Shown piece by piece: positions 30,066 to 57,020 of a stretch of DNA of 64,000 bases. Source of the stretch: Sordaria brevicollis (Eukaryota > Ascomycota > Sordariomycetes > Sordariales > Sordariaceae); NCBI GenBank assembly GCA_033439795.1, contig JAUTDP010000005.1, positions 2,943,001 to 3,007,000 on the forward strand. Direction: 5' to 3'. Within the stretch, counting starts at the first letter, position 1. Each line of letters begins with the position of its first letter. Under the pieces are notes generated by a model. That model searched no databases, was not told where the DNA came from, and saw nothing but the letters and a program-made list of their open reading frames with translations. The translations under genes were made by a program, and so were the position numbers.

Positions 30066-30899
30066 ATGGCACCTTCCGGCAAATCCAACGGTGCCCATGA
30101 GGACATCCCAACGCTAAAGCTTCGTAATCGTACCGTCTATCGCCGCATCGACCGTCATCACGCCTCTCGGGCCAGAAAGAAGGCCATCGACGCCAAGGCT
30201 AAGAAAGAGGCCACACTCGACCATCATATCGGCGAGAACACCTCCATTACTCCCGTCAAGGTGCACGACTCCATCCAAGCCGCTTCGAAACATGAAGAGG
30301 CCACCGCATCTGCCAATGCGCCTCAGAGGTTGACCACCGACGCCCTGAAGAAGCTGGACCCGTCTAACCCTCCCACCGCCAACGCTCCATCCTCCACCGA
30401 GAAGTCGTCGAAACGCTCTTCCACCTCGTTGTCAACCCTCATTGTGTACGTGTACGACCACTCTCACAAATCAGTCACTGTCGGCGACAACCCGACCGGC
30501 GTCGACATCAACCCAGGCGACCCCCTCGTCTGGGAGGACGACGATGAGTGCAATGTCAAGAACTGCGGGGACCTGGTCTAGCAACCCAAGGCCCGTGTGT
30601 GTTATAGGCATCTGCCTCCGGCAACTATCAAGCGACTGCCCATCGTCAAGAAGATGTGGATCGACGCTATGCAAGACCGCGGGCTTTACGTGTGTGTTCG
30701 TCGTTACGACGCCGTGGTCGCAACTCCCAACACCATCTGTGACAAGTGTTTTGCTATCCGCAACAAGCCCTTTGAGGACTGGAAGGAGGAGTTTTCCTCG
30801 GTCATCTCCTGGGTTGACGAGGTCAAGAACGCTGGAGAGCTCGAGGAGCATCCCCAGTGGGAGGGAAACCTCCACCCCTTTGCCAGATTGGCCTGTTAA
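30066..30899 (+). CDS. Cys-module protein D, TAG at the conserved Trp
   Basis: The ATG (ATCATGGCACC) opens a frame of 277 codons to TAA at 30897-30899, broken only by TAG at 30579-30581 (codon 172). N-terminus: RNRTVYRRIDRHHASRARKK, basic, with an R-x-IDR motif shared with gene E and the gene at 49032. The middle is Ser/Thr/Pro-rich. The module is C162-x4-C167-x3-V-TAG172-Q-P-x4-C179-x2-H182, then RGLYVCVRRYD and ICDKC, where the second cluster has lost a Cys. The 3' half after TAG (WIDAMQDRGLYVC, VISWVDE) is closely paralogous to gene E, which argues that it is still translated or only recently lost. Past the TAA another frame continues as PLPDWPVKALNGDDEGM, matching the tail next to the BTB fragment at 45060. 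I do not know the function. Confidence 0.68.
30579..30581 (+). other. in-frame TAG at the conserved Trp codon, gene D
   Basis: GTC-TAG-CAA-CCC replaces V-W-Q-P of the family. UAG to UGG editing would restore Trp. The UAG-CAA context is also a known leaky-stop context. Confidence 0.88.
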
Positions 30900-30962
30900 G
30901 GCCCTTAACGGGGACGATGAAGGTATGAGTGTCCCCAAGGATACCTAGGTTAGCATCCGGAC

Positions 30963-31117
30963 ATTGCTGGGAATCTAGGCCTCCATGTAATGGTTCCTGT
31001 CTAGAACCGTTAGTTGTAAGTAAATACGTTGATTTAAAATAACCGTATACTTCAAAATAACCGTTCACCTTAGAAAAACCGTTTTAAATAGATTGCCAGG
31101 TTCTAATTGGTTAGGCT
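30963..31117 (+). repeat. left inverted repeat of the 13 kb element
   Basis: Aligns with the reverse complement of about 44140-44290; the strongest part is about 31030-31117 (AAATAACCG..TCTAATTGGTTAG). An inner TGTAA (31015-31019) is mirrored by TTACA at 44216-44220. Confidence 0.7.
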
Positions 31118-34100
31118 AAAAGTAGGTCCTTAATCTATTAGGCTGTGGCTTGTGGTCCGTAAGTTCGGGAGCGGGAGTATATATAGGTAAAGGTTTTTAT
31201 TACGCGGACGGGCCAGCGCGCCGTTCGATTTATCTATATATATACGTATACGGCGTACGTATATACTAATTGTAACGTACTTGCCGCTAATTTTTATACC
31301 TTTTACTATTACTAATTTGTAATTACGTTAAGTGCCTACCGCGGTGCCGCCCGTTAATTACGTTAATTATAAAGGTTATTAAAACCCGATATTATATACC
31401 GTTTACCGATTACGCGGTTTATATTATAATATAAATTCTTTTATCCTATTAATTAATTATATATTATATTGCGAAAAAATCCAGGATCGGATTAAATATT
31501 ATAATACCTATATATATATAAAGTTGGAAATCGATTTTAAAAATATAATTAATTCGTTTAATACTTTTAATAATTAAAAATATACGTTTAGGATTTAATT
31601 GTATATTTTATATAATATTATATTAAATTGGAATTTTTTAAAACTATATAGTAGAAATATTAAATTAAATATTAATATCGGTATAAATTATATACGTAAT
31701 AGATAAAATAATAATATAAATAATAAAAAACGTTATAAATTAATATTAGATAATTATAAATTATTTTCCGGGATTATTAAAGGTCTAGGAGGTTTAGGCG
31801 AAAACGTTATATATATTTATATATTAATTGGGAATTAAATTTTACTATTATATTTATAGTTTAATATAATTTAGGAGGTCTATATATACCCGGGGTATAA
31901 GAAGGCGGAGTATTAATCCGTAATTCCGAGGGTTCTATTATTATATTCCAATATTATTAGAGTATTTTATATACGCTATCTATTAGGATTTATATATTAA
32001 TATTCGCGTTAATTTAATAATTATTAATATTTCCGTAATATATTGGAAATGGGTATATTAGGATACCGAATAATAAAATTTAAATTTCGCGGAATAATTC
32101 GGAACGTTAAATATAAATTAGGAGGATTCGGGAATTAATCGTATATAAATATTATTTAATTTATTTATATAAACGGTTAATATCCTTATTTAAGCGCTTA
32201 CGGGTATAATAATCGATAAATACTCTCGAAATAAAAGAGGATTCGTAATAAATTAAACGTTATTATTTATTAGCGTATATACCGATATTAGTAATAAACG
32301 TTTAGTATTATATATTTCATTTAATATTATTTTAAATATTTATAGTAATTAAAATAGACGGAATATTAATATAGCGATAATAATAAGCGTAAATTAGTTT
32401 TAAATATATATTAAATACGAGAAACGTTTTAAATATATCCTAATTTATATATATATTTCGGAACCTCGGCTTATAATTATTTTATTTACTAATTAACGAA
32501 TATAGATTTAATATCCTCTTCTTTTTATTTACTATACGGGTCTTTTAATTTAACGATATATAGCTTTTTTAATCGGATTGTAATTATTTTAACGATAATT
32601 ATATCGCTTTCCTCGATATATAATAGGTTGAGGATATAGTCCGTTTATCCCGTTAATTTTATATAAGTTAATATTATAAATAGAAAGCGGTAACCGATTG
32701 CCAATTCTTATATAAAAATATAATTAATTTTATTAATACATTTATATTTTATAATTAAAATTATTTTATTATTTAAATTAGCGTATTTAGTGCGTTTTGT
32801 ATATCGGTATTTAATATAGTAATTTTACAATAAGATATAATAGCGTTTATATTTATAAAATATTTCGTTAATAATATCCTAATAGTAATTTATATACGTT
32901 CCGGGTATTTTAAATATATTAATAGTAATATTTGTTCGGTAACCGTTTCGAATTTATATTATCCTATAAATAGTCGAAATATCAATATAGGGAAATACGA
33001 AGCTATAATTAATTAAAGTATATATTTTTACGATTATTCGACGCGTTTATTAAATATTATTAATTTAAATTTATAATTCGATTGCGTAAATTGAATTATA
33101 TATATAGATTAAGTTGTATTTTCCCGTTTTTATACGTTATCGATATATATATTATTAATTAAATATTAGGAAGTTAAAATATTAAATTTTATTTAATACG
33201 AAGTTTAAATACCCGTCCGACCGTAATATAATTACGCGTATAATTTTTCGAAAGAAAAATTATTATAAATTGCGGAAATTTATAACGCAATTATTTATTT
33301 AAATTCGAAATATTAAATTAAATAATTCAATTATTATCGATAGGATAAGTATTTATATTAATAATATATTATCGTTATTCGTACGAAATTCGCGATTTAA
33401 TTACTATTTATATTATATATATTTTTATCGTCGTTAATAAGTATAATATATTATATAATACGGTAGGTATATATAGGGTTTAATTAACATTTAATTAAGT
33501 TCTAATAAATTATAAACGGTTATAAATAACGGTTAAATAAGTATTAGGTTTGAACGTACGCCGTACGAAATATTAAATATATTTATCAATTATATAAAAT
33601 AAGGTATATAGGTAAAGAGGGGAAATTCGAGTATATATTTATTAAAAAAGGTAAATTTATTATACTATTATAATACTTTCGTATTAAATCCGAACGGTTA
33701 AATACTATAATTATATAAATATATATATTTTAAAAGTTATTAAAATAGAAGTTTTATATTCTATTCTATTAATAGAATTAGCCTATTTTAATTCGCGCGA
33801 TAGGCAATTTTACGTATATCCTTATATCGGATTTAATTTATAATTATCGGTTATATATAATTTTTATTTAGGTCGAATATAACGTTAAATTTTAATTCGT
33901 TATTAATTTCGATAATTTCTTCGATATTTCCCTTCGATAAAAATAAATTATATACGGTTAAAATACTATTTTTAAATCGGGTAATTTATACCGTTAATTT
34001 TAAGCTATCGTTATTAGTATATATATTCTACATAGCGAATTGTATAAATATTTAGAATGCCGCTATTTCGAGGATTATTTTCTCTAAGTTAATTATATTA

Positions 34101-35499
34101 GTCTTCGTCGTTCGATTTTTATTTACTTTATTTATATATCGTCAATATTTTATATATATATTGAATCGGATTTTATTTTTATTTGTACGAAGAAATAGGG
34201 TTTTATAGCCTATTAATTAAGTATAAATATATTAATTATCTTTTAATAATTTTTAATAAAGAATATTTTAATAAATAGAATTATTATAAAATTATAATAA
34301 AATAATTTATAATTTATTTATTATTTTTATATTTATATATTTATTACCCTATTCGTATAGTAGAACGTTAATATTAATTAGCGGTCTATATTCTTTTAAT
34401 ATTACTAGGTAGTATATAATAATATAAATATTCGGACGGGATTAGGTTACGAATAGTTTATTAATACGATGATTTTGTATTTTTTTTACGACTTTTAGTT
34501 AATCGGGCCTAGTTTTTAATATTTCTAGATTTAGATTTAAATTTAAATTAGGGTTTAGAATTATATTTATATTTTCGGCGGCGGTATTTAGATCCGGCCG
34601 TTTTTTATTAAGTCGCTTAGGAATTTAGTATAATTTTAGGTTTAGGGTAATAATATTAAATATTATACGGGCTAATTTTTAGAAAAATTGGCGAATAGAT
34701 TTAATATATTCTAATAATTTTATTCGGTTATTTTATATTAATTTAATATTTATTAGTAAGTTATTAATTTTCGTTAATAAAATAAATAAATAGATTACCT
34801 ATTCGATTATTATAATCCCTACTTCTTCGTCTTTATTAGGCGTATTAATATTTATATTTATTAATTCCTTTTAAATAATTTTAAATATATAGCCTTCGAT
34901 ATATTCCTTTTTTAATTATAATTATAGTAGCGTAGGTGCGATAACGGATTAGCGCGTATAGTATAATAAAGTCCAATTATTAATATATTATATTAAGGAT
35001 AATAAAGTACTTTAATTAGGAGGAAACGGTTAATATTGTAAAACGTATATATATTTTTTAGCGGTAATATTAGTAATAATTGCGTTTAATAGGGTATAAT
35101 ATAGAAAATATATTATATTATTAAATTCGGAGTATATTAAATTAGATGGCCGATTGTAGATAATATTTAGTGCCGGAGTAAATATTAGTAGTACCGGGCG
35201 ATTTAATAAAATACCTTATTAAGTAAAATATACTTTTTTATTATTTACGAATTTAAAATTATTATTTATTTTATTTCGTATAATCAATATTTAATAGTAA
35301 TAACGATTATATATAATCACGTCGAATTTTAGAATATTATTTAGTAGGTTAGGATTCGCGGGGTTTTATAAATTTAATTTTATAATTTAATCGCCGATTA
35401 TATAGTATCGAGAAAATTTATCCCCGTTAGGATTTAAAATATTAGAGTTTTTTATTTATTATACTATATTTCCGAAGTATATTAGCGTCGGTATATAAA

Positions 35500-37500
35500 G
35501 GATAATATTATCCGAATTTTTTTAATTATTTGTAACCGCTTTTATAAGTATTTTCTTATTTAATTAGCCTAATAGGTATAACGCGCGGATAACGTCGTTG
35601 AAATTCGAATTATATAGGCCGAATATTATTAGGAAAATATTAGACGGTAATTAGCGTATTTTAAAATTTATACCCGCTAAGGTAAAATAAACGTTTATTA
35701 GTAAGTATATAATATTTTTATATAATTTAAAATTATTTATAAATATTATAATAGGATAGTTGAATATTAGTTTATTATATAGTAATAATTTGTCCTAGTA
35801 TTTATCGAACTCCTTTCGACTATATATATCGATTTCGAATTAATTACGAATAGGGTTAATATAATATAATAATATTATTTTAATAATATAAAGACTATTA
35901 ATAAACGTAGGTTTTTATATTATAATAATACGTTATAGGAATAATTTATAATACGGTTCTATTATTAATTAAAGGTTAAAGTAGGAATATTTCGGGAAGG
36001 TTTTAATATAAATTTTATTACGTTTTATATTAGTAGTATTTTTACTTTCCGGATATATTTAATTGAATACTTTTTTGCGGGGATTAGGGTCGCTATAGGT
36101 TTCGTTCTAATATTAATTATAATAAATATTATAATTATAGATTATAAGGATTTCGGTCTTTTTAATATATATATTTGCTTTAAATAAAATAATTTTATTT
36201 TTATTTTATTCAATATTATTTAAAGCCTTTATTTCGTATAGGTTAATATTAAAGTCGTTAATCAGTAAAAATATATCGAATTTATAATATTTCTCTTTAA
36301 ATAATTTGTATATAATTATAATAATATTACCCTACTAGATAGTATAATAATCTTTTTTAAAATCCTTTACGATTGCGATAATTTATTTAATATATATAAA
36401 GTTTAACTTTATAGAATCCGTATTTTAATAAATATATTCTTTTAATTAATAATAGAAGAAAACGAAATTGGAAGAAAATATTAGGTTATTAAAGACGTTA
36501 AGACCTCTTACTTTTAACGGGTAATAAATATATATAAATTCGCCGGATATAGTACGGATAAATAAAATTTATAATAATATTTCGTATAATTTTATCGGTT
36601 CGTTTATAAAATATCCTATATTACGGTATATAAATTTAATAATATTAGACTAGTATAAAAATATAAAAAGGTTAATAGGATTAATTATATATAATTTCCC
36701 TATAGAAATTTTTAAAATAACGTTACTTTCGCTCTTTATATCTTTTTTAATTATTTTTTTAGATATTAGTATAATCGCAATATATTCGATTAATAGAGGA
36801 ATATCGGTATATCGTATATATATTATTAGGATATACAATTTAGTTCAATTTTTGAGAGTAATAAATTAATTTAAAAACTATTAGATTTCGTATAATAGAT
36901 TATTATAATAATAATATTAATAGCGAAAAATTAATATAATTTTTCGGATAGTATTATATTACGTCCTTTTAAAGCCGTATATATATATATATAACGATAG
37001 TAATATTTTAAAGTCCGAGACGGTTAGGTTTTTATTAAAATTGTAGAAAATTAGTATTAATAAATTTTGTAATTTAATAATATAAAGTAATTAAATAATT
37101 CGATTTTTTTCATTAATAACAATAATATCCTTAACCGCTTTTAAATCTACTTCGGTTGCGATTAATTTCTTTATTTTACGGTTAATATTAATTACCAATA
37201 GGAATTATTCGTCGAATAATATAAATATTTATTTAGGTTCCTCTTCGGTTTTTTCGTTATATTTAATAATCCGAATTAATTCTTCGCAATCGAAGCCCGA
37301 TAATAAAAATATAATATTAAAATTATTAACGTCAATATCGGTTTTAATATTAATAAACGCTAATTAAATATAAATTAATATTAATAATAATATATATAAG
37401 GTTTCGTCGCGTATATAAAACGTACGTTGATTATTTTCTTTTATTTTTAATTATACGTCGTTAGTATTTAAATTATTATTATTATTATTAATATTCCGGC
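35500..37500 (-). pseudogene. Tnp2-like transposase remnant
   Basis: The minus strand, read through stops, gives a ladder of protein-like segments. A Cys-rich-looking entry near 36.8-36.6 kb is followed by YKRTDKIIRNII. Then come FDIFLLINDFNINLYEIKA, INPIRN.FEIDIY and IIIFINNF.LYKN...VYFTLAGI. These resemble Tnp2 of CACTA/Plavaka-type elements (PL..FIDDFG.YR....GVY.TPAG). The IFINNF segment has Asn where an Asp pair would be expected, a RIP-type change. Confidence 0.55.
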
Positions 37501-38299
37501 TACTTATTAAAGTAGAAAACCGTAAATTAGGGCTATATATAGCGGGGTATTAATTAAAATTAATAATAAATAAGGGTCGATTTACGTTTATAATATTAGG
37601 GATATTATTAATAACGATAATAAATATAAGTAAATTATACCCTATATTATTAAGCTTATTTATTACCGCTTTTTTAGCGAATTATTTAATGAACTTTCGT
37701 ATAGCCTCTTTTTATACCCTTTCGTATTATATTTGGTTTTACGCTTATTTCTTTACTAATATCCGCGCTTCTACGCGCTATTTAATTTCGAATTTAGCGG
37801 CCTTTAATTATCGTTTATTAAGTAGGGTAAATAATAACCCGCTTATAAGGGTTCGAATACTATTTATATTTCGAAATAATTTATATTTATATTCTAGAGT
37901 AATTTTTAATTATTAATCGGTTAGGATGGGATTAAATAGATATAATAAAACCGATATTATAAATTTTAATCCGATATAAAAAATTAAAATAAAGTAGTTG
38001 AATAAAGTTTCGGGACGCGGGTTACGTATAGGATTAAGCGATATAAAAGAATAATAAAATTCGAATAAATATTATTTATTTAAATACTATTTAATAATAT
38101 AGATATTCATTAAAATAGTAGATTTCTAGTAAACTCCTTTATTAATTATTTAATAATATATAAATTTATAATTATTTTTTGTCCGTTTTTTTTCTCTTTT
38201 TAAATTATTTTATTATTAAATTTATAGTAATTAAGATAAATATTGAAATAATCTATTAAATATTTATTATATTTAGTACGATCGCTTTAAATTAACCGT

Positions 38300-41200
38300 A
38301 TGTATAATTTACGCGTTAATTTATTTATAAATTTATATTTGGGAATTTATTTTATTACGACCTTATTAATTATATACAATTAAAGGAATTTATTAAGTAA
38401 ATAGTAATTATACTACTTAAAAAACCTAAGGGTAAGCTTTAAGTAGCGTAAACGGATTTAATTGCAACCTTTAGCCCGGTTATTAATTAAATATAGGGTC
38501 TAATATTTATTAAATTATTATTATTATTTAATATTTATACTTTAACCCGCGCTATATTTTATATATTACGGGCGTTTTAATTTGCTATAAATTTTAAAGG
38601 TATTATACCTATTAAGTCGGCGATATTTATATTAAGAAGAATTTTATATACGACGAATTCGGTTATAAATTTATTAAATCCAATTAACCCAAACCTATTA
38701 ATTTTAACCGGTTATAATATCTTTATTAATCGGTATTCCCTCCGAAATAGCGTAAGATTATATAATAAAAAAAACCTTATTTTAAAAGATATATAAATTC
38801 CCGATATATAATAATATAAATTAAACGATATATAGCCGTTTAATTACAATAATCCTACCTTATTCCGCCCTACTCTTATTATTACGGATATATAATAAAA
38901 TATTAATAATAATAACGAAATATCGGAATTTAGCATTATATTATCGGCGCGCTTTAAGGGCTTCGAAAGATATTCGGGACTTTTTATAACGTTATTTAAT
39001 ATCAATTAATTATTAGCGTTTATATAAATTTTAATAATACGGCTATTAGAATTAATATTTCTATTAACCCGTCGTAATTAGTACGCATTTTAATATAATT
39101 AAGTAAATTACATTATTATTAATATATATATATATTATTAAATTTAATAATTAATAGGTCGTTATTAATAAATATAAAAACTGCTATTTATAATATTATT
39201 ATCTATTGTAATTACTCTTAGGGTTACCCGTATGCCCGAATTTAAATATAATAAACAATTAGCTTAACCTTCTTAATCCCGTCCTATACGTATAATAGAT
39301 TCGTTAATTAAGTTACGGATCGATTTGCCTATTTTTTAACTACTATTTCCTATTATATTTTTTATTAAAATTCCGCTTCCGGGCCTTCGCGATACCGTAA
39401 CCCCTCTTTCTATATAAGTAAAAAATTAATATAAAGAAATAAATATTAAATATCCCTAACCTTAATAATAAAAGTATTATTTAATATAGAGATTATAATA
39501 ATTATCGGAGCGTATTTAAACTTTTTTTAACGAATTAACCTATATAATATATTAGAAAGTTATTTTAATATAATTTACCCTAATATAAGGATAAGAATAT
39601 ATTTTCGTCGAAGAATATCGTTTATTTATAATTATATTTACCGGATGGTAAAATTACCCTATATTAGTCTTTAGGATTCGTTAATTTTTTAAATAATACC
39701 GCCCCCCTTTTATTTATTTATTTATTCCGGACTTTATATATTCCGGTTTAATTCGCTTAGGTTTTTATAAAAGTATTAATAATTTATATTAATACGGTTA
39801 ATATTAAATCGCTAATAGTTTATTAGTAAATAAATAATTCCGACTTCTTTTTAAACCCTCTTAGTAAGTACCGCGGTCTATTTAATAAATATAATATATT
39901 AACGTTAAATAATTATAGCCTATAACCGTAAAACCGCTAATATAATTTATTCGAAAGGATAAGAAAAAATATAAACGATTCTTAGAATATTATAGAGATT
40001 TATTTATAATATAAATAAGAGAGTAAATTATATAATTATATAAATAATTCGATAAATATTCGAAGAGTAAATTGTAATAGAAATTTAATTACTAAAATTA
40101 AATCCGGGTAATATTTAAATATATTAATTCTAAATTCGGTAAAGGATAATTATTAAATAAGATTTTGAATATAAAATTAGAATTATATATCGATATAATT
40201 ATTTTAAATATTTAATCTTCGGATTTAGAGTTAGAAAAAGGCCCGGATAATATACTTCTTCCGTATACAAATATAGAACCGAAGGTTTATAAATTTATTT
40301 TCCAAAGTATTTTTCTAATACCCGTTATTGCCGCTTAAATTATACTTTCGTTTATTCGGCTTATTAATATATTTAATTTAAATATAATACTTCTATCCGC
40401 TTAAATTATATTTATATTTATTAAACGGATTAATATATTTAATATTAATAATATTATTTATATTAATACTAGTAAAAAAGGATTTACCGGAGGAATTCGC
40501 CTTATTATACTTTTAAATACTATTATATTAAAATTCGCTATCGCCGTTAGGGCTACCTTTACTTATATACTTATACCCTCGGCCGCCGCCGTATTAATAA
40601 CTTCTATAATAAAACCCGCTACCACTTTATTTATACCCATTAAATTTATTATACCCCCTACCTTTAATACTTCTATTAATATTAATAAAAGAGGATTATA
40701 TTAGTCCGATAAATATCCTTAAAATAAAATATTATAATAATTTAACGACTAATTTCTATTTCCTATTAATAATAAACCGATTTTCGAATATAACGATTAT
40801 ATTAATAATAACGATTTAACCGCTATAGAAGAAGTAATTACAACGTTATATTAATCCGTAATTATAAATACGATACGACGCGAATAATTAATAGTCGGCC
40901 CGTCGTACCCTATAGGTATTATTTAAATTACTTACTATAAAGGAAATAATTTAGAAAACGATAACGTAATTTTCGATCTCTAATTATAAATAATACCTTT
41001 AATTAATACGTCCAAAATTAAAGGTAAAGGGAAGTAATAGAAGAATTCCTAAATAATATTTATATAACGGATATAATTAATATAGCCGCTCGTTAATCTT
41101 ATTAATCCCGCCGATTTCGTTAATTTAATCGATAGTAATAACGATATTAAAATCGACGCCGCTAAGCTCGAAATAATTATTATTATCGAGGCCGCCGAAG

Positions 41201-43300
41201 CGCCGTACGATGTAAATTTATTACCGATTTATATTCGAATAATTACGTTATTACGAGAAAGAAATTTATACCTCTAATTATTACCGAGTAAATAGAATTT
41301 ATAATAATATAATTTAAAGAATAAATTACTAAGGTTATAATTTATTTCCAATTCCTAATTATAAAATAAGGTTAATCCTATTATCGCTCTAATAGGCGTT
41401 AATTAAAATATTTAATTAAACGTATTATTTATTATCGATTTAGAATTTCGTTTTAATTATTTTACATATATATAGAATATATTTATTAATTACAAAATCG
41501 ATTATAGTTTAGAAGTATTATAAGTACCTAAGGATATAATCCTAAATTAATTATAATAAATATTATAAAATAAATTTATAGCCGCCTACCGTAATTTTAA
41601 ATATAAAATTATTAAAGGTTTTATTAAATTCGTAATAAAGTTAATTAATTAGAACGCTTAAAAGATAGTTAATATATATAATACCCGCGAATAAATAATA
41701 GCGGAAATTATATAAAGCGTAACCGGCAATAAGGTATTAATTTCCTAAAAGGAATTTAATAAATTAAACGAATAATATATTTCTAAATTCGATATTTATT
41801 TAATTCTTATACTTTTTCTATATATTATTAGTTATTTAGATATAAATATATTCTTCGATTATAATAGTCTTACTTTTTATTAAGTCTAAAAAATTTTTAA
41901 TTATTTAATATATAATATAATAGATATTATATATACCGAAGATATTATAAGAATATATTAACGCGAATTTATACGTCGCGGAAAGAAAATTAGTATAATA
42001 TAGAAGAACGAACGTATATATTAATCTATTTTAAATATTTACAATTCAATCCCGTACGACCTAATTACTCGTATTATCGATTATAATTTATTCCCTTTTA
42101 TATAATAAAAAGGCGTTATTAAATTATTAAAAGTATATAAATATCGAATATATATAAAGATTATCCGGAATTACGTACTATATTATAGATTACCCCCACT
42201 TCCCGAAGGATACGTCTTTATTATTAAATTAAAAAGTAATATTATTAATTTAATCGAGCGTATTAATTAAAATAAATACTCTAATAGCGAAATTTCCAAT
42301 TATAAAAACGAATTAACGCTTATAAAACCCTAAATTTAGCGACTTAATTTAAAGGATATAAGTATACGGGCTAAAACCTTTTATATTTCGACGAAACGGT
42401 TAATTATAAACGTATTAAATAACTTATAAAATCGATTATTAATTAAATTTCGCGTTCTATTTAATTTACAATACGTATAAATTATATTTAAGGACGTTAT
42501 AATAAACGGTATTATTATAACTAACGATAATCTAAAATAACCAGCGATATAAATTAAAAGAGAAATAGCAGAAAAAATATAATAGTAATAACCCTTTATT
42601 ATAGCGATAGAATTATAATTTATAAATATTATACTTATTAATAATATTCTTAATAATAAATAATTAATATATATATTTATAGTAAATTTTTTTTAATAAC
42701 CCTCTTTCCGAATATTTTAATTTAAGCGGAAACGATAAGTAATAGTAAAATATATACTACGAAGCGACCGAATAAAATATATTAATATTCGAAATAAATA
42801 TATATTAAAATATCGACGAAATATTCGTATTATAACGTTAATAATAATAATAAGAAATATCGCCATTTATCCGTATATCCGAATTACGTTAAATATTTCG
42901 TATATTATCCGCCGTTTAATTCTAACAATTTATATCGTAATAATACTAATATAATAAATATAAAAGGCGCTACCGGAGAGGCGATAACGAATTAACTATA
43001 TATAATATAATAACCAACGATAGAATACCCAATAAAATCACTTTTAGCCATTCTAATACCCTAATATAATTATAAACGCGTACGAAACGTAAATTTTAAA
43101 CGACCGTTAATAAAATTGCTACTCCTAATACCGGAATTATACCTATTAATTTTAATATATTCGCTATATTAAATAATATAAGCGTTAATAACTATTATAA
43201 CTTTTAATACAATAATTAAAACGTATTTTAAAAGGTAGTATAAATATAGTTAATATAATTTTAATATATATATAAATAAATTATACGATCGAACGTTCCC
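38300..43300 (+). pseudogene. unassigned plus-strand coding remnants
   Basis: Protein-like runs between stops, e.g. RFKGFERYSGLFITLFN near 38.95 kb and RPPFIYLFI near 39.7 kb. They indicate a second large gene transcribed away from the Tnp2 remnant. Family not recognised. Confidence 0.35.
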
Positions 43301-44139
43301 CTTTTGCGTAATAAGGACCGATTTTCCTAATTTTATAGCGAATAGTATTTTATAAATACGCCGCCTAATATATAATTATATAATTAATTAAAATAAGAAA
43401 TCTCTACGGTAAATAAGACCCGTCGTAGAAAATTAACATCGACGACCTTATAAAATACGACTATAATACGTACCGATTCTCGCGAATAATTTTAACGTTA
43501 TATTATACACCACTATAATATAAATTAAGAAATAGTATAAACGATTTTACTACTATAATATTATTATATATTAATAATATTTAAAGTAAATAAAGCGCTA
43601 TAAAATTATTTTCACCCTAAGACTATTAATAATATATTATATATATTATATATATATATACAATTCTTTAAAATCGATATAAACCGGCTTATATATATTA
43701 AAAGATTAAAAGGCTTTATTAATATAATATTTATAACTAATATATAGCTCGAAGTATTAAATATCCCCCCGTTATCGATATTAATTATACAAAGTACGGC
43801 AACGGTATACTCTAACTATTCTTATAATTAATTTAAAGGTATTATAAAATTTCCTTTCTTTATAAACGTATATTTAGCCGTAATTTTAATACAAAATTGT
43901 TTAAAATTGTAATTATTGCGTATATATTTATATTTTGATTCATCTTTCCAATTTCGATATAGAAATTTATATATATTAAATATATATCCGGTTTATTGGG
44001 TTGGGTAACTTTTGCTATTGAATTAATAATTTGCCTCGTATAGTCCTAATTGGCTAGATACTGGGATATGTACCGGTTATCGTACTTATTTTACCGTAAG
44101 AATTTTACGGCATATGGCGCCCCACTCTAATTCTAACCA

Positions 44140-46020: not shown

Positions 46021-46080
46021 TCAGAACGAAGGTGTCGATGGTGCACCAGGGAAATCCCAATCGTCAAATATGGAATCCTT

Positions 46081-46083
46081 CTA
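46081..46083 (-). other. TAG before a coding-like C-terminal extension, gene C
   Basis: The 19 codons after this TAG (46080-46024) continue the acidic/aromatic composition of the tail and end at TGA. The UAG may be edited or read through. Confidence 0.5.
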
Positions 46084-47985
46084 GTTTTCACCAAACCCAA
46101 AGTCGTCATCGTACTTCTGGATTGCGTTCCACTGATCAAGCTCGTCTAAGAAGTTGTCGAAACTGTAGAGGTATTCGTCGTCCTGATCAGGATCGGCAAC
46201 CGGACTAGTCGATTGATCGGCCTGATCTTCGTCCTGGTCTCCATCTTCAGCCGTACCCGGCGAGTTGGCTGTGCCATCAGTGGAAGAGGACGACGAAGGG
46301 CGACGTTCCATAACGCTCAGAGGTCTGGGGCTATGGGTTCCAGAGTTGGTGTTTCCGTGTGGAAACTGCTCGGATTGGAAGTTCTGGGTTACCGAGCTTT
46401 GAGGATTGGAGCTCTGCGGGCCAACACCGCCTTGGGGCAACGCTTGTTGTGGATAGGAGCTCTGTGTGTAGTCGTTCTTCGAGTGGCTGTTCCGAGCAAA
46501 ACTGTTGGAGTGGCGTTGTTCAGAAGTATGATCACTCGGAGCAAAACTGGCGGGAGCTGAACTGTTCGTGGCAAGGCTGTCCGGGTGGAGGCTCTGCGCG
46601 TGAGAGACCTGAGGAATAGCTCTGTTTCGAATAGCGCTGGCCGCCTGGGTGATTCCTTGAAGCATAATGCTCTGAACCACGTTGCCCAGGGCCGTTGTGC
46701 CGCCCAAACCGCCCTTACCCTCGTCCACACTGCTTCTGGTCTCGGTGCCAGTCTCTTTCCAATCCGCGGCAGTCATCGTAGCAGCACCGGCACTCCCCTT
46801 CTTCTTCCTTCCGACTCCGTTGCCGGCCTTGCGGAGTTTTCTGTTCCGCTCTCCCTTGGTACGACATCCATCACAGAGAGCCGTTACTTTCTTCTTGTCG
46901 AGCTTTGCCTCTTTCTTGAAGCAATCGGAGCACGAGTATATACCTCGGGCATGACGGTCGAGGATCAGCTTCATCGTTGCCTTGCCGGGTTTGTTTCTGA
47001 GATGCCGAAAGCACTTGTGCCCTCCCGTCTGCTAAACGGGAGAAGCACAACCGCCCCGGTTGTTCTCACCCAGGCAAATGTCCTTCGGCACAATTGGTTT
47101 CGGTTTGACCACCGGCGAGCTTGGTTCGGAGCCGATGGCGCTACTCTCGGATGGTGAGGTGCCATGATGGTGGCCTTTGGCGGCTGGGTTGTGGACCTTG
47201 ATTAAGCTGTGACCGTTGTGGTCGTGGTGGTTCGCAAGCGGGACCTCCTGGGTCACAAACGCAATATCTTGATGGCGATGACTCGCGTTGACACCGTAGC
47301 CGGGCAACGGATTGGTGTAGTTGCTGGTCTGAAGGTTGATTGTTTGGGAGTGAAAGTCTGTCATGTGGCTTGACCTGGGATTCCTGTTGAAAGCGGTGCC
47401 CGGTCCACGGATGCTGAAGGAGACTGTAGAGTCTGTCGGCATCTTTCCGACCAACTGGCTGCCCTTACCTTGGGAGCTAGCCACTGGGCCAGTGGCCCTG
47501 ATGCTACCAGTCTGACTCGAGGAGGGAAATCCTGTAGTCATGCCATTCATGACACCAGAACCCAATCCACGGGGCAGCGTAGTGCCCGGAGAGACAGCGG
47601 CAAGTGTTCCAGGCAAATAGGATCGACTGGAACCTGGAAAGTGGTGGCGAGTAGGAGCTGCTGGGCGAGAGTATGGTGTAGCTGAGTGGTGGAGAGAAGC
47701 GCGAGAGGTACGAGACACGACCGAAGCCATGGCACCGCCCATAGGAGGGCGTCTTGAAGTAGGCCTGGCTGATGAGCCCGTGAGCCCAGTGCCACCATTG
47801 TCATTGTGGTTGTACGTCAGGACGACGCGACGCTCCTGGACAAGTTGAGAATCTGTTAGACAACGTCGTAGGCGAAGGACTGACGAGATTCGGAGATGCT
47901 GGTTGCGCCTTACCTGGTTGGAGCTCATGGGCTGCTCGTCCGTCCTGTTGAGGAGGCGATGTTCGTTCGGCTCATTTGACGCCAT
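46081..47985 (-). CDS. Cys-module protein C, TAG at the conserved Trp
   Basis: Exon 1 is 47985-47914; a 78-nt in-frame intron (47836-47913; GTAAGG, CTAAC, CAG) follows a Gln codon; exon 2 runs 47835-46081. The N-terminal 270 residues are Ser/His/Pro-rich. The module is C278-x8-C287-x3-V-TAG292-Q-x5-C299-x2-H, then C-x2-C-x15-C-x2-C in HARGIYSCSDCF..ALCDGCRTKG, followed by a Lys-rich stretch (RKAGNGVGRKKKG). The tail is Ser/Gln-rich, then acidic (FDNFLDELDQW). The TAG lies at 47032-47034. The stop at 46081-46083 is also TAG; after it 19 more codons look like the same acidic/aromatic tail (IFDDWDF) before TGA at 46021-46023. Apart from these TAGs the 600-codon frame is intact, which argues against a simple pseudogene. 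Probable zinc-binding protein; function unknown. Confidence 0.75.
47032..47034 (-). other. in-frame TAG at the conserved Trp codon, gene C
   Basis: GTT-TAG-CAG stands at the V-W-Q position of the family module, with Q-x5-C-x2-H following in frame. Confidence 0.9.
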
Positions 47986-48138
47986 CGTGTAATCGAAGAC
48001 GGGGAAAAAGACCTGATGGTTGACTGTGAGAGGATACGCACTTGTTGCTTCAGAAAAATCGCAGTGTCTGAGGTGGGTGTGATTTGCGTTTAGTCAGGAA
48101 GGAGTGATGAACCCCCGTCACTTTCCAAGAATAAGCCA

Positions 48139-48149
48139 ATATATATAGT
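48139..48149 (-). promoter_or_regulatory. TATA box of gene C
   Basis: An alternating TA run (TATATATA on the minus strand) about 155 bp upstream of the ATG at 47985. Confidence 0.45.
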
Positions 48150-49031: not shown

Positions 49032-50390
49032 ATGGCACCCTACCAAAAGCCCGCGGACGCTCACTCTCAACCCTCGAACCTTGCAGCGCCAGAAACAAAT
49101 CAAATCCACTTGTCAAATATGAACAAATTCAAACAAATAAACAAATAAATCGAAGTCTAGATTTGATTTGAGCAAATCAAGGAAATTGACCTCTCTATTT
49201 GATTTGATTTGATTTGCCGATTTATCCGCCCTCTTAATCGGTTGGTAAAGGCCTTTTAGGTAAGAAAAAGTCGTGATATTTCCTCCTCTAAAAATTCCGG
49301 GAGGCCGATTTGGTTGAGGGTTAGGGTTATAGGTGAAGAAAAATCCGTTTGGTAAGTAGTCAAATATTTTCAAATCAATTCAAATCAAATCAAATCAAAT
49401 CAAATCTAAATAAATCAAACTTCAGATTTGAGTGGGTCAAATCAAATTGAGGTCCCGATTTGATTTGATTTGATTTATTTCTGGCGCTGGAACCTTGCCT
49501 CGCGCCCTCGTCCTGGCGTATCGCATCGCACAATTGACCGCCAGCATGCTCCTCCGACCTTCACCCTGGCAATCCGCACCAAACGCCAGGCTGTCATCGA
49601 AGAGCACATCGCCAACGAGCTAAAGGCCACCAGAGCTCAGAAACATGTCCCTGAAGACAGCGACCACGAAATGGGCCAATCACCTACCACCCCCGTCACC
49701 TCTTCCCAAGACATCCCGCCCACCACAGCTCAACCGCCCACCCCTCGCGACACCCTATTCAACGAAGACCCCAAACTCCGCCAACAATTCAACTGGGACG
49801 CCGCCGTCCCCGTCCCCGACGACGGCATCTCCCCCTCCGACTCCGTCAGCGAACAAGCCCGTCTGCGTCTGCGTCATCCGAAGCCTCAACGCAGAGAGCC
49901 CACCCCTCCTTCTCCCAAACCGCAGCCGTCTTTCAACAAAAACCACTGGGCTGCACGACATGCTTTGTGGGGTGGCCGCGGCGACAACTCGCTGACGCAC
50001 CACAACCTGTTCATGCAGCAGAGGGAATGCAAGAAGAACGCGTCGACCGTTTACACCTGCTCGGACGAGTGCTTCTTGCCGGGCGTTTTGGGGTTTCGTC
50101 ATAGCAGCGATTGTGATTGCCCTGATCTCTGGCATGAATGGTCGAGGGATGAATTGTATATCTTTGTTATGAGGTGGATGGATGGGATGGAGAGCGAGGT
50201 GGAGGAGGATGAGGGAGATGAGGGCGGAGAGGATATGGAGGAGGAGGACGAGGGTGAGGAAGATGACATTAAGGAGGACATGGAAGAAGACGAGAAGGAG
50301 GATTTCGAGGAGGAGGAGAAGGAGTGTGAGGCATCATCCTTTGACGATATGGAGCTGTCCGATCGAAAGTCAGCGCCGGACGTCATGTAA
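49032..50390 (+). pseudogene. acidic-tail protein gene split by a MITE
   Basis: The ATG at 49032 opens MAPYQKPADAHSQP, similar to the start of gene E (MPPYQRATGAHAR). After 17 codons a 406-bp MITE interrupts it. Removing the MITE and one duplication (414 bp, divisible by three) restores a 314-codon frame: 49032-49083 plus 49498-50390. The restored frame has the R-x-IDR motif of genes D and E (HRTIDRQHA), a Pro/Thr-rich middle, a Cys-rich patch (YTCSDECFLPG, CDCPDLW) and a very Glu/Asp-rich tail (residues about 230-300). With the MITE the frame stops at a TAA inside the element. Expression would need splicing of the MITE or a downstream start. It is related to genes D and E at the N-terminus but lacks the V-W-Q module. 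Confidence 0.75.
49084..49489. mobile_element. hAT-type MITE, 406 bp, inside a CDS
   Basis: Termini CAGCGCCAGAAA and TTTCTGGCGCTG; 8-bp target duplication GAACCTTG (49076-49083, 49490-49497). Subterminal arrays of AAATCAAATC/GATTTGATTT. The central part resembles the MITE at 97-472 in inverse orientation. Confidence 0.93.
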
Positions 50391-50864: not shown

Positions 50865-52009
50865 ATGCCCCCGTACCAAAGGGCCACAGGCGCTCACGCC
50901 CGCTCTCAGACCATGAGTACACCTATTCGCGCAATTCGTCACCGCATCGACCGCCCCCTGGGAAATTCGCCCGTCGGCAGGGCCGTTACAGCCAGACGTA
51001 ACGCCATCTTGCGTCGTGGGCTTTGCGAACAGCTGCTTGCCTCGAGAGTCCAGGGAAACAGAAACCAGCCGGTGAGTCTCCCATAACCGAAGTTGAACAA
51101 CCAGACACCGACTGACAGTTTGGTTAGACTCTCTTTTCCAGAACTTACGACGACAAGCCCGATGATGACTTCATGCTCGATGGAGTCAACGGCCTGAAGA
51201 ACGACGTCCTGGTCGCCTTCATCGCTACCCTTCACCAAGAGAATTCGACCAAGGATCAGTCCGCGCTTCTCAAGGACGCTCCGTCGGCGTCATCCCCTTG
51301 GGGCTCTTCTCTCTTGTCGGAAAAACATGGCGTCAACCTCGACAGCAGTGTTGTGACGTCGACCTCGGCTTCCAGTTCCGCCAGCTCTACCAGGTCCATC
51401 GACCATCACTCTTTGACGGAGAAGGCCCTCTTATTCCTGGACTCGACCACCTCCACCACGGGCCCGAGCTTGAACAACAAGATATCGCCCGATGAGACCT
51501 CTGTTCTCTCTCAGGATACGTCCAAACCCATCGATTCTCACCAGTCCTCATCAATCCAGTCCTCCTCCCGAGGAAGCGACTCGGAAGACGACGAGCAATG
51601 GGCCACTCCCCTCGTCTACGGCCCACCCATTACCTGGTCCTCGAACGACATCTGTGAGCAGAAGGGCTGCCACACCTTCGTTTAGCAGCCGAAGGGTGGC
51701 ATGTGCTATGCTCACATGCCGAAGAAGTTTAGTCGCAATAAGAGGGAGTGGATCGCGATGTCCGTCCATCGCAAGGGCCTGTACCTCTGCGTTGGCCGCT
51801 ACGACGCGGCTGTCCAACATGCTGATTCGCTTTGCCCGAAGTGCGAATATTATCAGAGCGTGGAAGAAAGTGAGGAGCGCCGGGCCCGCCGGTTTTCGGA
51901 GGTGATCGCTTGGTTGGATGGGATCGACGACGGAGCTGAAGAGAAGGATGCGTCTCGTTGGTGCAAGGACGTGTTGGGCGCTGCCGATTGCCAAATAGGC
52001 GTCGTCTAG
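50865..52009 (+). CDS. Cys-module protein E, TAG at the conserved Trp
   Basis: Exon 1 is 50865-51071. A 56-nt intron (51072-51127; GTGAGT, CTGAC branch, GTTAG) follows. Exon 2 is 51128-52009. The intron follows an N-Q-P context, close to the intron position in genes C and F. N-terminus MPPYQRATGAHAR and RHRIDR motif as in gene D and the 49032 gene. The middle is Ser/Thr/Asp-rich (residues 90-235). Module: C245-x4-C250-x3-V-TAG255-Q-P-x4-C262-x2-H265, then KGLYLCVGRYDAAV and LCPKC. After this come EERRARRFSEVIAWLDG and a short tail. The only in-frame stop in 362 codons is TAG at 51683-51685. The region after TAG is as well conserved with gene D as the region before it, arguing for translation across the codon. 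Function unknown. Confidence 0.75.
51683..51685 (+). other. in-frame TAG at the conserved Trp codon, gene E
   Basis: GTT-TAG-CAG-CCG at the V-W-Q-P position; downstream Cys/His spacing is unchanged. Confidence 0.9.
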
Positions 52010-52187
52010 AAGGCACGGCGGTTGAATATACCGATTATGAGTGAAAGTGGAGCTAAGCTGAAGCCAGCTTAAGGAGAAGATCAAACAGGGGCATACAAGC
52101 AATCTGTTCTTGTATGGGTTGATGGTAAAGACCGCGTGTGTTGACGAGGATGATGGCGATAGGGGAATAGAGGATGTTCTGTTTTGA

Positions 52188-53263: not shown

Positions 53264-54847
53264 ATGAAGGTAACGGCATCCAACACGACGACACCAGCCA
53301 TGGAACTCACCAACAACCCTCGCGCGGCTAACCGCCCGCTTCTACCTCGACTCCCAACGGCTACTTCAACCTCGACCAGTTCCAACATACAAGAGCACAA
53401 CCAGAACCGGCCTTCGACACAGCTTCCACCCACTCCGAACACTCCAACAAACTATCAACAACTTCAAATCATACTATCTCTTCATCCTCAAGAGCATACC
53501 TCTACCTCAACCATATCCAACCAGAACCAAGAAGACCGTCCCCAAGGGCAACGTCCGATGCTCCCGGTCACCCCAAGCAATAACAGCCAAGTTCAGCCAC
53601 CGCCCACACAACAACAACAACAACAACAACAACAAACCCCAAACACCGCGGCTACTAGCTCCAACTCCAGCTCCAACTCCAACTCCAACTCCAACTCCAA
53701 CGAAGAAGCCCACCACCACCCTCCCCAGCATCAACCTCCTATCCCAACCACCACCAGCCCATTTCCCCCAGCCCCAATCCCAAACCTCACCCACCCACCC
53801 GCCTTCCCCCCACGCTACACCCAACCAGAACTACACTTCCTCCAAGCCATCTCCGCCAAATACGCCTCGAAAGACCCGGAAACCTACCACCAGACCATGC
53901 TAAACGCCCGCCGCTACATCCAACGTCAGCGCCAGCGAGCTTTCCACTTCGCCGTGCGAGAGGCGGACAAGAGGATGGACGAGTACTTTGACTTTGATCG
54001 TTACGAGGCTGACAGGCAGGAGGGGATGAGGAGGGCGGGGGTGGAGGATCCTTGGGCTTGTGGGGATGGGGAGGAAGTAGGAGGGGGAGGGGGAGAGGGG
54101 AAGGGGAAGGGGAAGGGGAAGGAGAGGGAAGAGAAGGGGAAAGGCAAGGCGGAGGGGGAGGGTCGTAACCAAGGGGAGGAAGTCATCGGAGACAACCGAG
54201 GGGGGGAAGCCAGCAGAGTCAACCGAGGGGAGGAAGCCAGCAGAGTCAACCGAGGGGAGGAAGCCAGCAGAGTCAACGTGAACTCTTTGAGTCAAGGAGG
54301 TACGAAGAGGAGCTACTCGAGGATGACGGGGGACGAGCCGACGCTTGCTCAGGTCAACAATAATGGCCTGGGACAACGAGCCAACAATAATGGCCAGGGA
54401 CAAAAACGAGTGAACAAGCAGCCCGGTACTCGGCAAGTCTACAACCAGTCCGCTGTTCAACAAGTCAACTACCCCCAACAGAACAACAACGCCAGAAACT
54501 CAGCACGAGACTTTGGCTCCCAGTCCCAGTCCGCTGTTCAACAAGTCAACTACCCCCAACAGAACAACAACACCATGAACCCAGCACGAAACTATGGCTC
54601 CCAGTCCCAATCCCAGCCAGTTCAAGCTCCTCCCTCATCAGCTCCCTCATCAGCTCCGCCAGCAACAACCTCCAACAGGATCCAACAACAGCAAATGCTA
54701 ATGCACTTGCAAGCGACACAACTAGCGTTAGCGATTGCAAGCCAAACCCGAGCTCAAGCTGCTCAACCACCCCAGCAACCAACCCAGCAACCACCCCAGC
54801 AACCACAGCAAGACAGAAACAATCAACCAACCCAGCCATTCAAATAG
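53264..54847 (+). CDS. low-complexity Gln/Asn-rich protein (527 aa)
   Basis: Single frame; ATG at 53264 or, with better context (GCCATGG), at 53300. The N-terminal 180 residues are Thr/Pro/Asn/Gln-rich with a poly-Gln run (CAA repeats near 53609-53635) and an alternating Ser-Asn run. Residues about 183-262 form the only ordered-looking part (YTQPELHFLQAISAKYASKD, NARRYIQRQRQRAFHFAVRE), which is charged and probably helical. A Gly/Glu/Lys stretch, three copies of a 9-residue unit (GEEASRVNR), two copies of a 27-residue unit (core SAVQQVNYPQQNNN) and a Gln/Pro tail follow. The composition is prion-like. Not recognised; the tract-rich design is common in fungal regulators, but no domain shows this. 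Confidence 0.65.
   Translation: MKVTASNTTTPAMELTNNPRAANRPLLPRLPTATSTSTSSNIQEHNQNRPSTQLPPTPNTPTNYQQLQIILSLHPQEHTSTSTISNQNQEDRPQGQRPMLPVTPSNNSQVQPPPTQQQQQQQQQTPNTAATSSNSSSNSNSNSNSNEEAHHHPPQHQPPIPTTTSPFPPAPIPNLTHPPAFPPRYTQPELHFLQAISAKYASKDPETYHQTMLNARRYIQRQRQRAFHFAVREADKRMDEYFDFDRYEADRQEGMRRAGVEDPWACGDGEEVGGGGGEGKGKGKGKEREEKGKGKAEGEGRNQGEEVIGDNRGGEASRVNRGEEASRVNRGEEASRVNVNSLSQGGTKRSYSRMTGDEPTLAQVNNNGLGQRANNNGQGQKRVNKQPGTRQVYNQSAVQQVNYPQQNNNARNSARDFGSQSQSAVQQVNYPQQNNNTMNPARNYGSQSQSQPVQAPPSSAPSSAPPATTSNRIQQQQMLMHLQATQLALAIASQTRAQAAQPPQQPTQQPPQQPQQDRNNQPTQPFK
54180..54275 (+). repeat. 27-bp tandem repeat in CDS
   Basis: Three units coding GEEASRVNR (first unit GGEASRVNR), nearly identical in sequence. 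Confidence 0.85.
54445..54610 (+). repeat. 81-bp tandem duplication in CDS
   Basis: CAGTCCGCTGTTCAACAAGT starts at about 54446 and again 81 bp later, giving two 27-residue units. Confidence 0.85.
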
Positions 54848-55817
54848 AGGTAACCAAAGGCAACTTGGCCTCAAGTGCAAAAGGTCGCTGTTATCTACAA
54901 GCGACATTTCATGTCCTTCATGTTAGCGGTGGTGGTTCCTGACGTAAAGGGGAGAGTGCGAGCGAAGAAAAGCAAAAGTGGCACCATTTTCAACAGGCCC
55001 AAGGAAACGGTTCCGGGTCAGCGGTGCACAAAATGGTTCGGATCCAATGCAGACTCTGGTTGCATTACCAAACTGCCGGGAAATGGTACAATACGTACAT
55101 GTACATGGACAATGGTTCGGATCCAATGCAGGCAGGCGTTGCATGAACCGGGCGAAGCTCCGCGAGCGACCCAGAGACGCGGTATTGGTACGTGTTCTGC
55201 ATCACCTGTATGCAAGAGCTGCATGGTTTGGAAACTCGGGACAAAAAGTTGCAGCGGTTGAGAGTGGAGTATGGGACGGGGTGGAAGCGAAGGTGCTTTA
55301 ACTCTGGCATTGGGATGGCAGTGTAGAAGTGTGTATCACAGCAGCGGATAAGTGGCTTTCCTAGTGGAAGGAGTGTCGTTGGAATAGCCAGAGAGACTTT
55401 GTAGGAGTTGAACATTCAGCGACTTTTGGAAACTTAACCATGGGGTTCTTGGTGGAAAGTGTACTGTTAGATGAGAAGTACCTCTAGAATTGAAGTAGTA
55501 GCGAGAATGCTAGAGAAGCCAAGTTACATACACAAACTACGTATAACATGATCGCTTGTACCCTTTATTCCCTTTCCCCCGCGCTCTGCTTCTGGTAATA
55601 ACATGTCCGAAAGAGGGTGACTGGAGGTAGAGAAAGAGTAGTCAAAGCTTGGGAATGCCTTGCTCGAAGAGTTGGGGAGGTACCGTGACAGCTGCTAGCT
55701 TCCCAACTTATGTTTGTTTTTCAACATCTGAAGATAGTCGTCATCGCCGGACATCATGAAGCTAGTGACATGGCCATTTTGGAGCTCGCCATGCTCACTC
55801 AATGGAGTAGCTTCAAG
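54848..55817. other. intergenic with a 21-bp direct repeat
   Basis: AATGGTTCGGATCCAATGCA occurs at 55032 and 55111, each followed by G. No gene supported; the region lies between two convergent genes. Confidence 0.5.
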
Positions 55818-57020
55818 TCAAAGAACCACAGACCAGAATGACGAGGGCTTCGGCAGTTGAACTTGCGTGTTTTCTGACCTTGGAGCCGGAGTGCTTGAAC
55901 AGGCGGGGTTTGACGGGCCATGACCATCCGAGGTACCGCTATCCTGGGGCTTTGCTTGTCCAGTCTCAGAGGGTATCGAGCATGACGGCCACTGCTTCGG
56001 TTCGATGGACAGAAAATGACAATCAATGAATGCCGTTCCTCTGTTACGAAGCCTTTTGCGCCGTTCCTTTGACTTGCTCCGCCATGCGAGACATTTCTGA
56101 CAAAGCTTGCTATCAGAGAGAATTGCAGGCCTTAATAAGCATCTGGTGCAGGTCCGAATTCCCAAGGCGTGACACGCTTTGATGGTCTGGATCATACTGT
56201 CACGCAATTTACCTGAACCGCATCCAAGGTGAGAAAAACAGCGTATCGCACCCGGCTGCCACACAAAAGACTCGCATCTTGAGACCGTACAGGTCGTAGT
56301 GGAAACAACAGGAGGACCAACGGGAACACCACGGGCGAGTTGATCAGTATCCAGATAATCACGGCGATTCCCGTTCCTGGGCGTGGCCTTCTTTGGGTTT
56401 TTGGCGCGGCATTGTGGACAATAGGTGTCCATGGGTTGAGCCTCCGCCCTAAAACAACGGGTACAGATCCATTTTCCCAACGCATGGCATGACTGGATGT
56501 GGTCGAGTATTTGTTGTATGTTCTTTCTGGGAAATTTGCTAGTGTGGGCATGACAGCGGCGCTCACCCCGTTGCTACACGAGCGAGTCGCAGCAATCACA
56601 AGTAGCCATGGAGACAATGGGAGGGGGTACGGGATCGTTCGAGGGCAATGGTCTGCTTCCGTTGAGAGGTTGTGTATGTGCGGCCACACTGGTATAAATC
56701 GGACGAGAAGGCGGACTTGGATCGACTGGTGTGAATCCGATGGTGCTTGTAGGGTATTGTCGGGCATTATCGACGCCAGAAGGAACGGGCTTGTTTAGTC
56801 CCTCTCTTGTCGGTGTGTCTTCAGAACTCGGCGAAGCATTGTGTCCAGCTTCCGGGCTTGTACTTGTCTTCTGCTGACAAAGTTGCATTGTCAGCCTGAG
56901 CTCGTAGCTCTGCGGATCAAGGAAGTGATGGCAGGGAGCCGTTACCTGATGAACTGCTGGAGGGCTCTTGTCTGCATTTTCGGCAGATTGCTGACTTGCT
57001 AAGAAGTCTTTGAAAAGCAT
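55818..57020 (-). CDS. two-module Cys protein F, TAG in module 1, TGG in module 2
   Basis: Exon 1 is 57020-56946; a 72-nt in-frame intron (56874-56945; GTAACG, GCTGAC branch, CAG) follows H-Q; exon 2 is 56873-55818. About 90 Pro/Ser-rich residues precede two tandem modules. Module 1 starts CDCCDSLV, then TAG (codon 125, 56574-56576), then Q-x5-C-x2-H and ALGKWICTRCF..YCPQCRAKN. Module 2 starts C-x4-C-x3-V-W230 (TGG at 56259-56261), then QPGAIRC-x2-H and ALGIRTCTRCL..KLCQKC, followed by a basic stretch (KSKERRKRLRNR). The two modules share the H/C spacing and the ALG-I/W-CTRC motif, so module 1 had Trp at the TAG codon. The frame is otherwise open for 376 codons. If translation stopped at the TAG, both clusters would be lost. 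Function unknown; probably zinc binding. Confidence 0.78.
56574..56576 (-). other. in-frame TAG at the conserved Trp codon, gene F module 1
   Basis: GTG-TAG-CAA; the sister module in the same protein has GTG-TGG or equivalent at this column. Confidence 0.9.

Follow-up and report, generated by a model that had tools for sequence, protein, structure and literature searches.

A UAG codon on a predicted, covarying hairpin in a clustered gene family of Sordaria brevicollis: a likely site of A-to-I mRNA editing

The DNA analysed here, referred to as the window, is a stretch of 64,000 nucleotides (bases 2,943,001-3,007,000 of contig C23) in the 53-Mb genome of the Sordariomycete Sordaria brevicollis (family Sordariaceae). 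It carries members of a family of paralogous genes in which one tryptophan (Trp) codon of a Cys/His-rich module is TAG in some copies and TGG in others. The sequence evidence points to hairpin-directed adenosine-to-inosine (A-to-I) editing, which very probably converts UAG to UGG in the messenger RNA (mRNA) of at least 21 copies. The complete protein, predicted to bind metal, would then arise only where the deaminase is active. We infer deamination of the A itself, the enzyme being most likely Tad2-Tad3-Ame1 in sexual tissue and possibly one of the OTT_1508 type (OLD). The unedited mRNA would yield a protein with two of the eight putative ligands, of low complexity as judged by eye, and the edited mRNA, with UGG, would yield the full protein with all eight. 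An initial annotation had proposed candidate A-to-I editing for four genes of the window, citing sexual-stage Sordariomycetes, the class to which the host belongs. The proposal survives the tests made on the sequence, and the covarying hairpin around the UAG lends it independent support.

The window lies within a cluster of paralogues that spans about 2.77-3.00 Mb on C23. The module of the window gene at 21893 has 29 matches in the whole genome, 28 of them on C23, and searches started from two other subfamilies yielded 25 and 19, exclusively on C23. In a profile scan of 218 kb of C23, 31 modules with a readable Trp column at the usual spacing were found, 19 with TAG and 12 with TGG. Outside this count stand a further TGG copy with altered spacing (2799648) and two TAG copies known as pattern matches in the cluster, one with the whole module (L078) and one decayed (L077). 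The family total is at least 21 TAG and 13 TGG at the Trp column, and no other codon occurs there. Left out of the totals are fragments with an unreadable Trp column (2829673, 2919295, 2919480, 2923695 and 2949927) and four further places (2832279, 2778053, 2755827(-) and 2814882(-)). The core-motif pattern matched 77 places in the whole genome and 92 in the reversed control, and its cluster places alone were used; a variant pattern, A-*-K-A-G, matched 28 places as against 27 in the control, and its four in-cluster matches are members already known.

The stops of the family are concentrated in one column. Over columns -12 to +45 of the 31 modules, 19 stops fall at column 0, all of them TAG, and the other eight stops are scattered over eight different columns. 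With this concentration as TAG at column 0, the stop is not random decay. The TAG divides the eight Cys/His columns of the module into two upstream and six downstream. Among the 27 modules that remain when four fragments are left out, the two columns before the TAG are kept as Cys in all 27, and the six after it are kept in 27, 27, 27, 24, 26 and 26. Most copies have an open frame on either side of the site. Beyond the 19 TAGs the frames run for 20 to 316 codons, the two shortest belonging to decayed copies. Two genes with TAG and one with TGG have in common a VI[AS]GRV motif near the C-termini, well past the site. Downstream of the TAG, the ratio of nonsynonymous to synonymous differences (pN/pS) is 0.34-1.08 in 80 TAG-TAG pairs, drawn from 17 whole-module TAG members that pass the length and score limits, and in 67 of the 80 the bootstrap interval stays below 1 at its upper end. 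For the closest pair, w = 0.154 (limits 0.08-0.35, based on 400 scorable bootstrap replicates out of 500). These ratios are rough, because the synonymous distance (dS) is almost saturated and local alignment is biased towards conserved stretches.

A hairpin is predicted around the UAG, in one register and with compensatory changes, and it is missing from most TGG paralogues. When 30 bases are folded on each side of the site, the probability (P) of finding the A in a hairpin loop averages 0.90 over the 19 TAG sites and is at least 0.93 in 16 of them, as against a mean of 0.22 over the 12 TGG sites, where it is high in two. The mean is 0.23 at the terminal TAGs of family frames (at least 0.9 in 1 of 11) and 0.26 at other TAG triplets of family genes (at least 0.9 in 8 of 91, some of which may be counted twice where genes overlap). 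Shuffles that preserve the protein give a mean of 0.49 (standard deviation 0.09), and none of 300 matches the observed value. The difference between TAG and TGG sites persists at flanks of 21 to 60 bases, and TGG sites into which TAG is substituted for folding reach 0.27-0.38 at flanks of 30-60.

The pairing itself may be followed in a register in which the A is numbered 0 and base i pairs with base 2-i. At i = -4 to -9, 0.75 of the cells are paired, compared with 0.18-0.52 in 18 other registers and 0.51 at the TGG sites. Over i = -3 to -11, the excess over synonymous shuffles has a z of 5.6 for all pairing and 7.0 for Watson-Crick pairing alone (0 of 3000 shuffles in both cases), while the TGG members in the same register have z values of 0.17 and 1.26, respectively. 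An eight-pair stem over all 19 sites has 72% of its cells paired, 28 cells changed on both sides, and a covariation of 0.448, a score reached by none of 500 shuffles and by no slid stem (0.217 at most). On a subset of 9 of the 19 sites the score is 0.712, and for the same stem at the 12 TGG sites it is 0.150, which is at the shuffled level (182 of 500). The covariation points to selection on an mRNA structure with the UAG at its centre, which is what editing of the mRNA by a deaminase of transfer RNA (tRNA) would lead one to expect.

In tRNA, A34 is the third base of the 7-base anticodon loop. The A of the UAG would likewise be the third base of a 7-base loop in 8 of the 19 sites, in which the -3:+5 pair needed for a strict 7-base loop is present; the other 11 have T and C at these positions, and without the pair the A would be the fourth base of a 9-base loop. 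In the minimum-energy folds of 18 of the 19 sites, the loop that holds the A has 3 to 9 bases, and in ten of them it is a triloop. The anticodon-like loop is therefore one way to read this stem.

Several observations weigh against editing directed by a hairpin of this kind. The contrast is smaller when 15 bases are taken on each side: the TGG sites then reach 0.54 and, with TAG put in, 0.77. The encoded protein itself favours the loop: the synonymous control is 0.49-0.52 compared with 0.39 at 100 other UA sites, and since the shuffle mean of 0.49 exceeds the latter value, the tendency towards a loop is in part due to the protein sequence. Three of the 19 TAG sites fold poorly (2828899, a decayed copy, P 0.43; 2893929, 0.30; 2923011, 0.58), and two TGG sites fold well (2769752 and 2966003). 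One register off (register 1), the TGG set shows a weaker pairing excess of its own, with z 3.0. Two coarser measures on the full set are less decisive than the covariation score, both-side changes being reached in 41 of 500 shuffles and further pair types in 24 of 500. The starred branches of the module tree offer two independent pairs, too few to test the association of hairpin and TAG, and, as for constraint after the stop, dS is near saturation and pN/pS is lowered by the local alignment.

Within the window, the pattern yields seven modules, four of them with TAG. As the initial annotation described, the four TAGs lie in frame and give C-x3-V-*-Q-x5-C-x2-H at 30579(+), 47032(-), 51683(+) and 56574(-), TGG occupies the same module place at 5080(+), 23063(+) and 56259(-), and the frames are open on either side of all four TAGs (105-316 codons downstream). 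Gene A (30066-30899, +) has its TAG at 30579-30581, its stop TAA at 30897-30899 and its module at 30549-30758, with 171 amino acids from ATG to TAG, 187 open codons upstream of the TAG and 105 downstream. The RNA hairpin at this TAG (30569-30593, +; A at 30580) has P 1.00 and is within the 19-site covariation count. Gene B (46081-47985, -) has its TAG at 47032-47034, a final stop that is also TAG (46081-46083) and its module at 46828-47076, with 317 amino acids before the TAG (353 open codons) and 316 codons after it; its hairpin (47020-47044, -; A at 47033) has P 1.00 and a minimum-energy fold with a 9-base-pair stem.

Gene C (51173-52009, +) has its TAG at 51683-51685, its final stop, again TAG, at 52007-52009 and its module at 51656-51868, with 170 amino acids before the TAG (185 open codons), 107 codons after it and a hairpin with P 1.00 at 51673-51697 (+; A at 51684). 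Its start had been placed at 50865, and the in-frame ATG is in fact at 51173. Gene D (55818-57020, -) has two modules and displays both states, TAG at 56574-56576 in one (56388-56594) and TGG at 56259-56261 in the other (56055-56288). There are 148 amino acids before its TAG (155 open codons) and 251 codons after it, and its hairpin (56562-56586, -; A at 56575) has P 1.00 at the TAG and is lacking from the TGG module (P 0.00).

Two further genes of the window are TGG paralogues. One, B0T20DRAFT_392440 (P0004), is a 541-amino-acid open reading frame (ORF) at 21893-23518 (+), with its Trp codon at 23063-23065, its module at 23003-23254 and a hairpin P of 1.00; P0004 extends further 5'. The other, B0T20DRAFT_478789 (P0005), has its main ORF at 4342-5598 (+), its Trp codon at 5080-5082, its module at 5020-5271 and a hairpin P of 0.00. 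The latter gene had been placed at 3685; its TGG module is real, but it sits in the ORF at 4342-5598, which P0005 joins to an exon at 3685. An isolated family fragment occurs at 6926-7087 (+), 73% alike to the C-terminal half of a TGG module (5193-5354).

Repeat-induced point mutation (RIP) or ordinary decay might instead have made TAG from TGG in duplicated copies that are now pseudogenes. The change from TGG to TAG is of the RIP type, the gene clusters alternate with blocks of 20-26% GC as RIP leaves, and plainly decayed copies exist (2828899, 2923885, 2940456, 2941671 and L077). The usual RIP ranges are a TpA/ApT ratio above 0.89 and a (CpA+TpG)/(ApC+GpT) ratio below 1.03. In contrast, TpA/ApT is 0.26-0.76 in 18 TAG frames and 1.0 in the remaining one, a fragment of 41 codons, and (CpA+TpG)/(ApC+GpT) is at least 1.03 in all 19. 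The shared stop sits in one column, yet 29 other TGG and 225 CAA/CAG codons are intact, partly by construction as the frames end at stops, and neither the constraint downstream nor the covariation of the hairpin is expected in pseudogenes. RIP, which the initial annotation had allowed for as the origin of the TAGs, is thus contradicted in these genes by the dinucleotide indices, and this explanation is exceedingly improbable.

The open frames on either side of the UAG would also be compatible with decoding of the codon without editing, by programmed readthrough or by a suppressor tRNA, and a hairpin at a stop site could in principle promote readthrough. The predicted hairpin, however, surrounds the UAG instead of following it. 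A shared UAG-CAR context had been suggested; it holds for the four genes of the window but not for the family, in which the next codon is also AAR, AGG, GCN or TCG. Since the base following the UAG is C, A, G or T depending on the member, there is no fixed readthrough context. Eleven family frames terminate in TAG, so UAG also serves the family as an ordinary stop, and the column holds TAG or TGG and never TGA or TAA, which fits correction of UAG to UGG for Trp better. A pattern search of the genome for a candidate suppressor tRNA gave 7 places, compared with 9 in the reversed control. Plain readthrough is disfavoured, and we regard it and suppression as highly improbable.

The NCBI models of the family fail at the site in both of the ways described for edited-stop genes. 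P0007 terminates at the TAG of 2817814, and P0006 (B0T20DRAFT_478782) jumps the TAG of 2921299. Automated annotation is described as truncating such genes or inventing introns in them (PMC4817773, PMC11169179). Taken at face value, P0006, which skips 24 codons together with the TAG, would make the TAG the 3' splice site of an intron, and splicing out of an edited site is described for FgBUD14 (PMC11156358). An in-phase GTRNGT donor 40-160 bases upstream, however, is present at none of the 19 sites (out of phase at 2), a CTRAY branch point within 45 bases is present at 1 of 19, and the stretch removed holds the two Cys columns that every one of the 27 modules keeps. An intron at this place is contradicted and hardly credible.

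The family may also be viewed through the history of the two codon states. On a tree of the 27 modules, TAG and TGG require four changes (4-6 in bootstrap trees), and the well-supported branches by themselves force two; 4 of the 24 inner branches are well supported, and the direction of change is unreadable. That one TAG had been inherited by all copies was an alternative considered earlier. Holding TAG as a single clade costs 50 log-likelihood units and is rejected (approximately unbiased test, p-AU 0.0016), while a single old gain of TAG followed by several losses may still describe the data. The hairpin is associated with TAG over the 27 modules (counts 15/2/2/8, Fisher p 0.0007, with relatedness ignored). 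The TGG gene at 21893, in which the hairpin is kept with the codon (window 23063) in the loop at P 1.00, may represent a reversion from TAG to TGG.

Hairpin-directed editing of the UAG agrees with what is described for other fungi. A-to-I editing takes place in fruiting bodies and prefers a U at -1 and hairpin loops, and about 70 genes of Fusarium graminearum have an in-frame UAG corrected to UGG (PMC11156358, PMC4817773, PMC9600606). The editing is performed by Tad2-Tad3 with Ame1 (PMC11156358, PMC11087585). In protoperithecia of Sordaria macrospora, 410 editing sites are reported, 244 of them coding, of which 47 would remove a stop (PMC5381528). In the S. brevicollis family, the U at -1, a published mark of fungal editing, is given by the codon itself at all TAG sites, and, as in PUK1, the UAG is in frame, UGG restores a conserved Trp, and the frame is open afterwards. 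Six places in the genome have a domain of the dCMP/cytidine-deaminase type, a count in which Tad2 and Tad3 are not singled out. PUK1-like genes (PUK1 and about 70 others in F. graminearum; NCU03242 in Neurospora crassa) resemble the present genes in the UAG correctable to UGG, the U at -1, the hairpin loop and the misannotation. They differ in that they are described singly, whereas the S. brevicollis family comprises at least 21 clustered paralogues with one homologous site and a covarying hairpin, known here from sequence alone.

A second enzyme deserves consideration. In N. crassa, OLD, a deaminase of the OTT_1508 type, corrects UAG in the zao zinc-finger genes as part of antiviral defence (PMC12754623), and CHE1 of Fusarium is a zinc-finger gene with an edited UAG, akin to zao (PMC11169179). 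The UAG of the present family might similarly be edited outside the sexual cycle by an enzyme like that of the OLD-ZAO system. OLD has the same preference, for U at -1 and for hairpin loops, and acts on UAG in zinc-finger genes (PMC12754623), CHE1 is laid out alike, its zinc fingers following the edited stop (PMC11169179), and a domain search of the genome found two OTT_1508-domain deaminase genes (G000:C21:196785-197000(-) and G000:C12:629837-630046(+)). These lie on C21 and C12 and none on C23, whereas old and zao adjoin each other, and a C2H2 match to Pfam was found in none of the five TGG members scanned. Editing by an OLD-type enzyme appears unlikely, if less so than the explanations without editing. 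The OTT_1508 places number two, as do old-1 and old-2 of N. crassa, and an OLD-ZAO system may exist in S. brevicollis.

ZAO-1 and ZAO-2 of Neurospora and CHE1 of Fusarium share with the present family a zinc-type module after the stop and a predicted hairpin loop at the UAG. They differ in carrying C2H2 fingers, and zao adjoins the OLD gene, while the Cys/His module of the S. brevicollis family is of another kind and the contig of the family lacks an OTT_1508 gene. Because the zinc fingers of CHE1 and ZAO likewise follow an edited stop, the best guess is that the full protein is a nucleic-acid-binding regulator. A spore killer of the Sordariaceae (rfk-1-like) is also said to have an edited transcript, with a stop edited there; it shares the family Sordariaceae with the present genes and resembles them in the editing predicted for them, a likeness by description and not by sequence. 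The wtf spore-killer family of Schizosaccharomyces pombe is comparable as a large, lineage-restricted family with two protein forms per gene (PMC5478263, PMC9762604), but its forms arise from alternative transcription starts and those of S. brevicollis would arise from the predicted editing. A bolder and rather doubtful reading is that these dozens of clustered genes form a lineage-specific arsenal, selfish (spore-killing) or antiviral, whose key metal module is kept behind one editable stop on a hairpin imitating the tRNA anticodon stem-loop. Ordinary cells would make the short form, the complete one being confined to asci or infected cells, and genes passing from a gated to a constitutive state, or back, would lose or regain hairpin and stop as a pair.

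No homologue outside S. brevicollis was found among 5.8 billion proteins by a search that relies on shared 5-residue words and in one run scored just the 7,993 best candidates; the five proteins returned are all from S. brevicollis. The five TGG members scanned have no match over the cut-off in Pfam, TGG members have no convincing solved relative, and a shallow model gave no fold match. No description of the family was found among the papers listed, at most 20 per literature search, from a collection outside whose coverage most subscription papers lie.

Stop-codon editing in fungi is known mainly from scattered single genes, and its adaptive value is debated. Here, one genome offers a natural series of at least 21 TAG copies beside 13 TGG copies, in which the hairpin, as the predicted editing signal, tends to be present where the stop is and absent where it is not, and a ready set of sites for one RNA-seq experiment. 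If the editing is real, whole families of such genes are overlooked or broken up in genome annotation.

Some minor features of the window may be added. The GC content alternates between about 41-57% in gene-bearing blocks and about 20-26% in other blocks (10000-20000, 32000-44000 and 60000-64000), which resemble RIP-made AT-rich isochores. An Rfam search over the window gave no match. Other long ORFs of the cluster are candidate genes without a Pfam match over the cut-off (24730-25527, 26677-27729(-), 49470-50390, 53264-54847, 57698-58861, 58107-59030 and 6915-7598(-)); the single weak match among them is to DUF7169 (E 0.034), in the ORF at 49470-50390. Two tandem 81-base units, 93% alike, lie at 54445-54606, within the ORF at 53264-54847.

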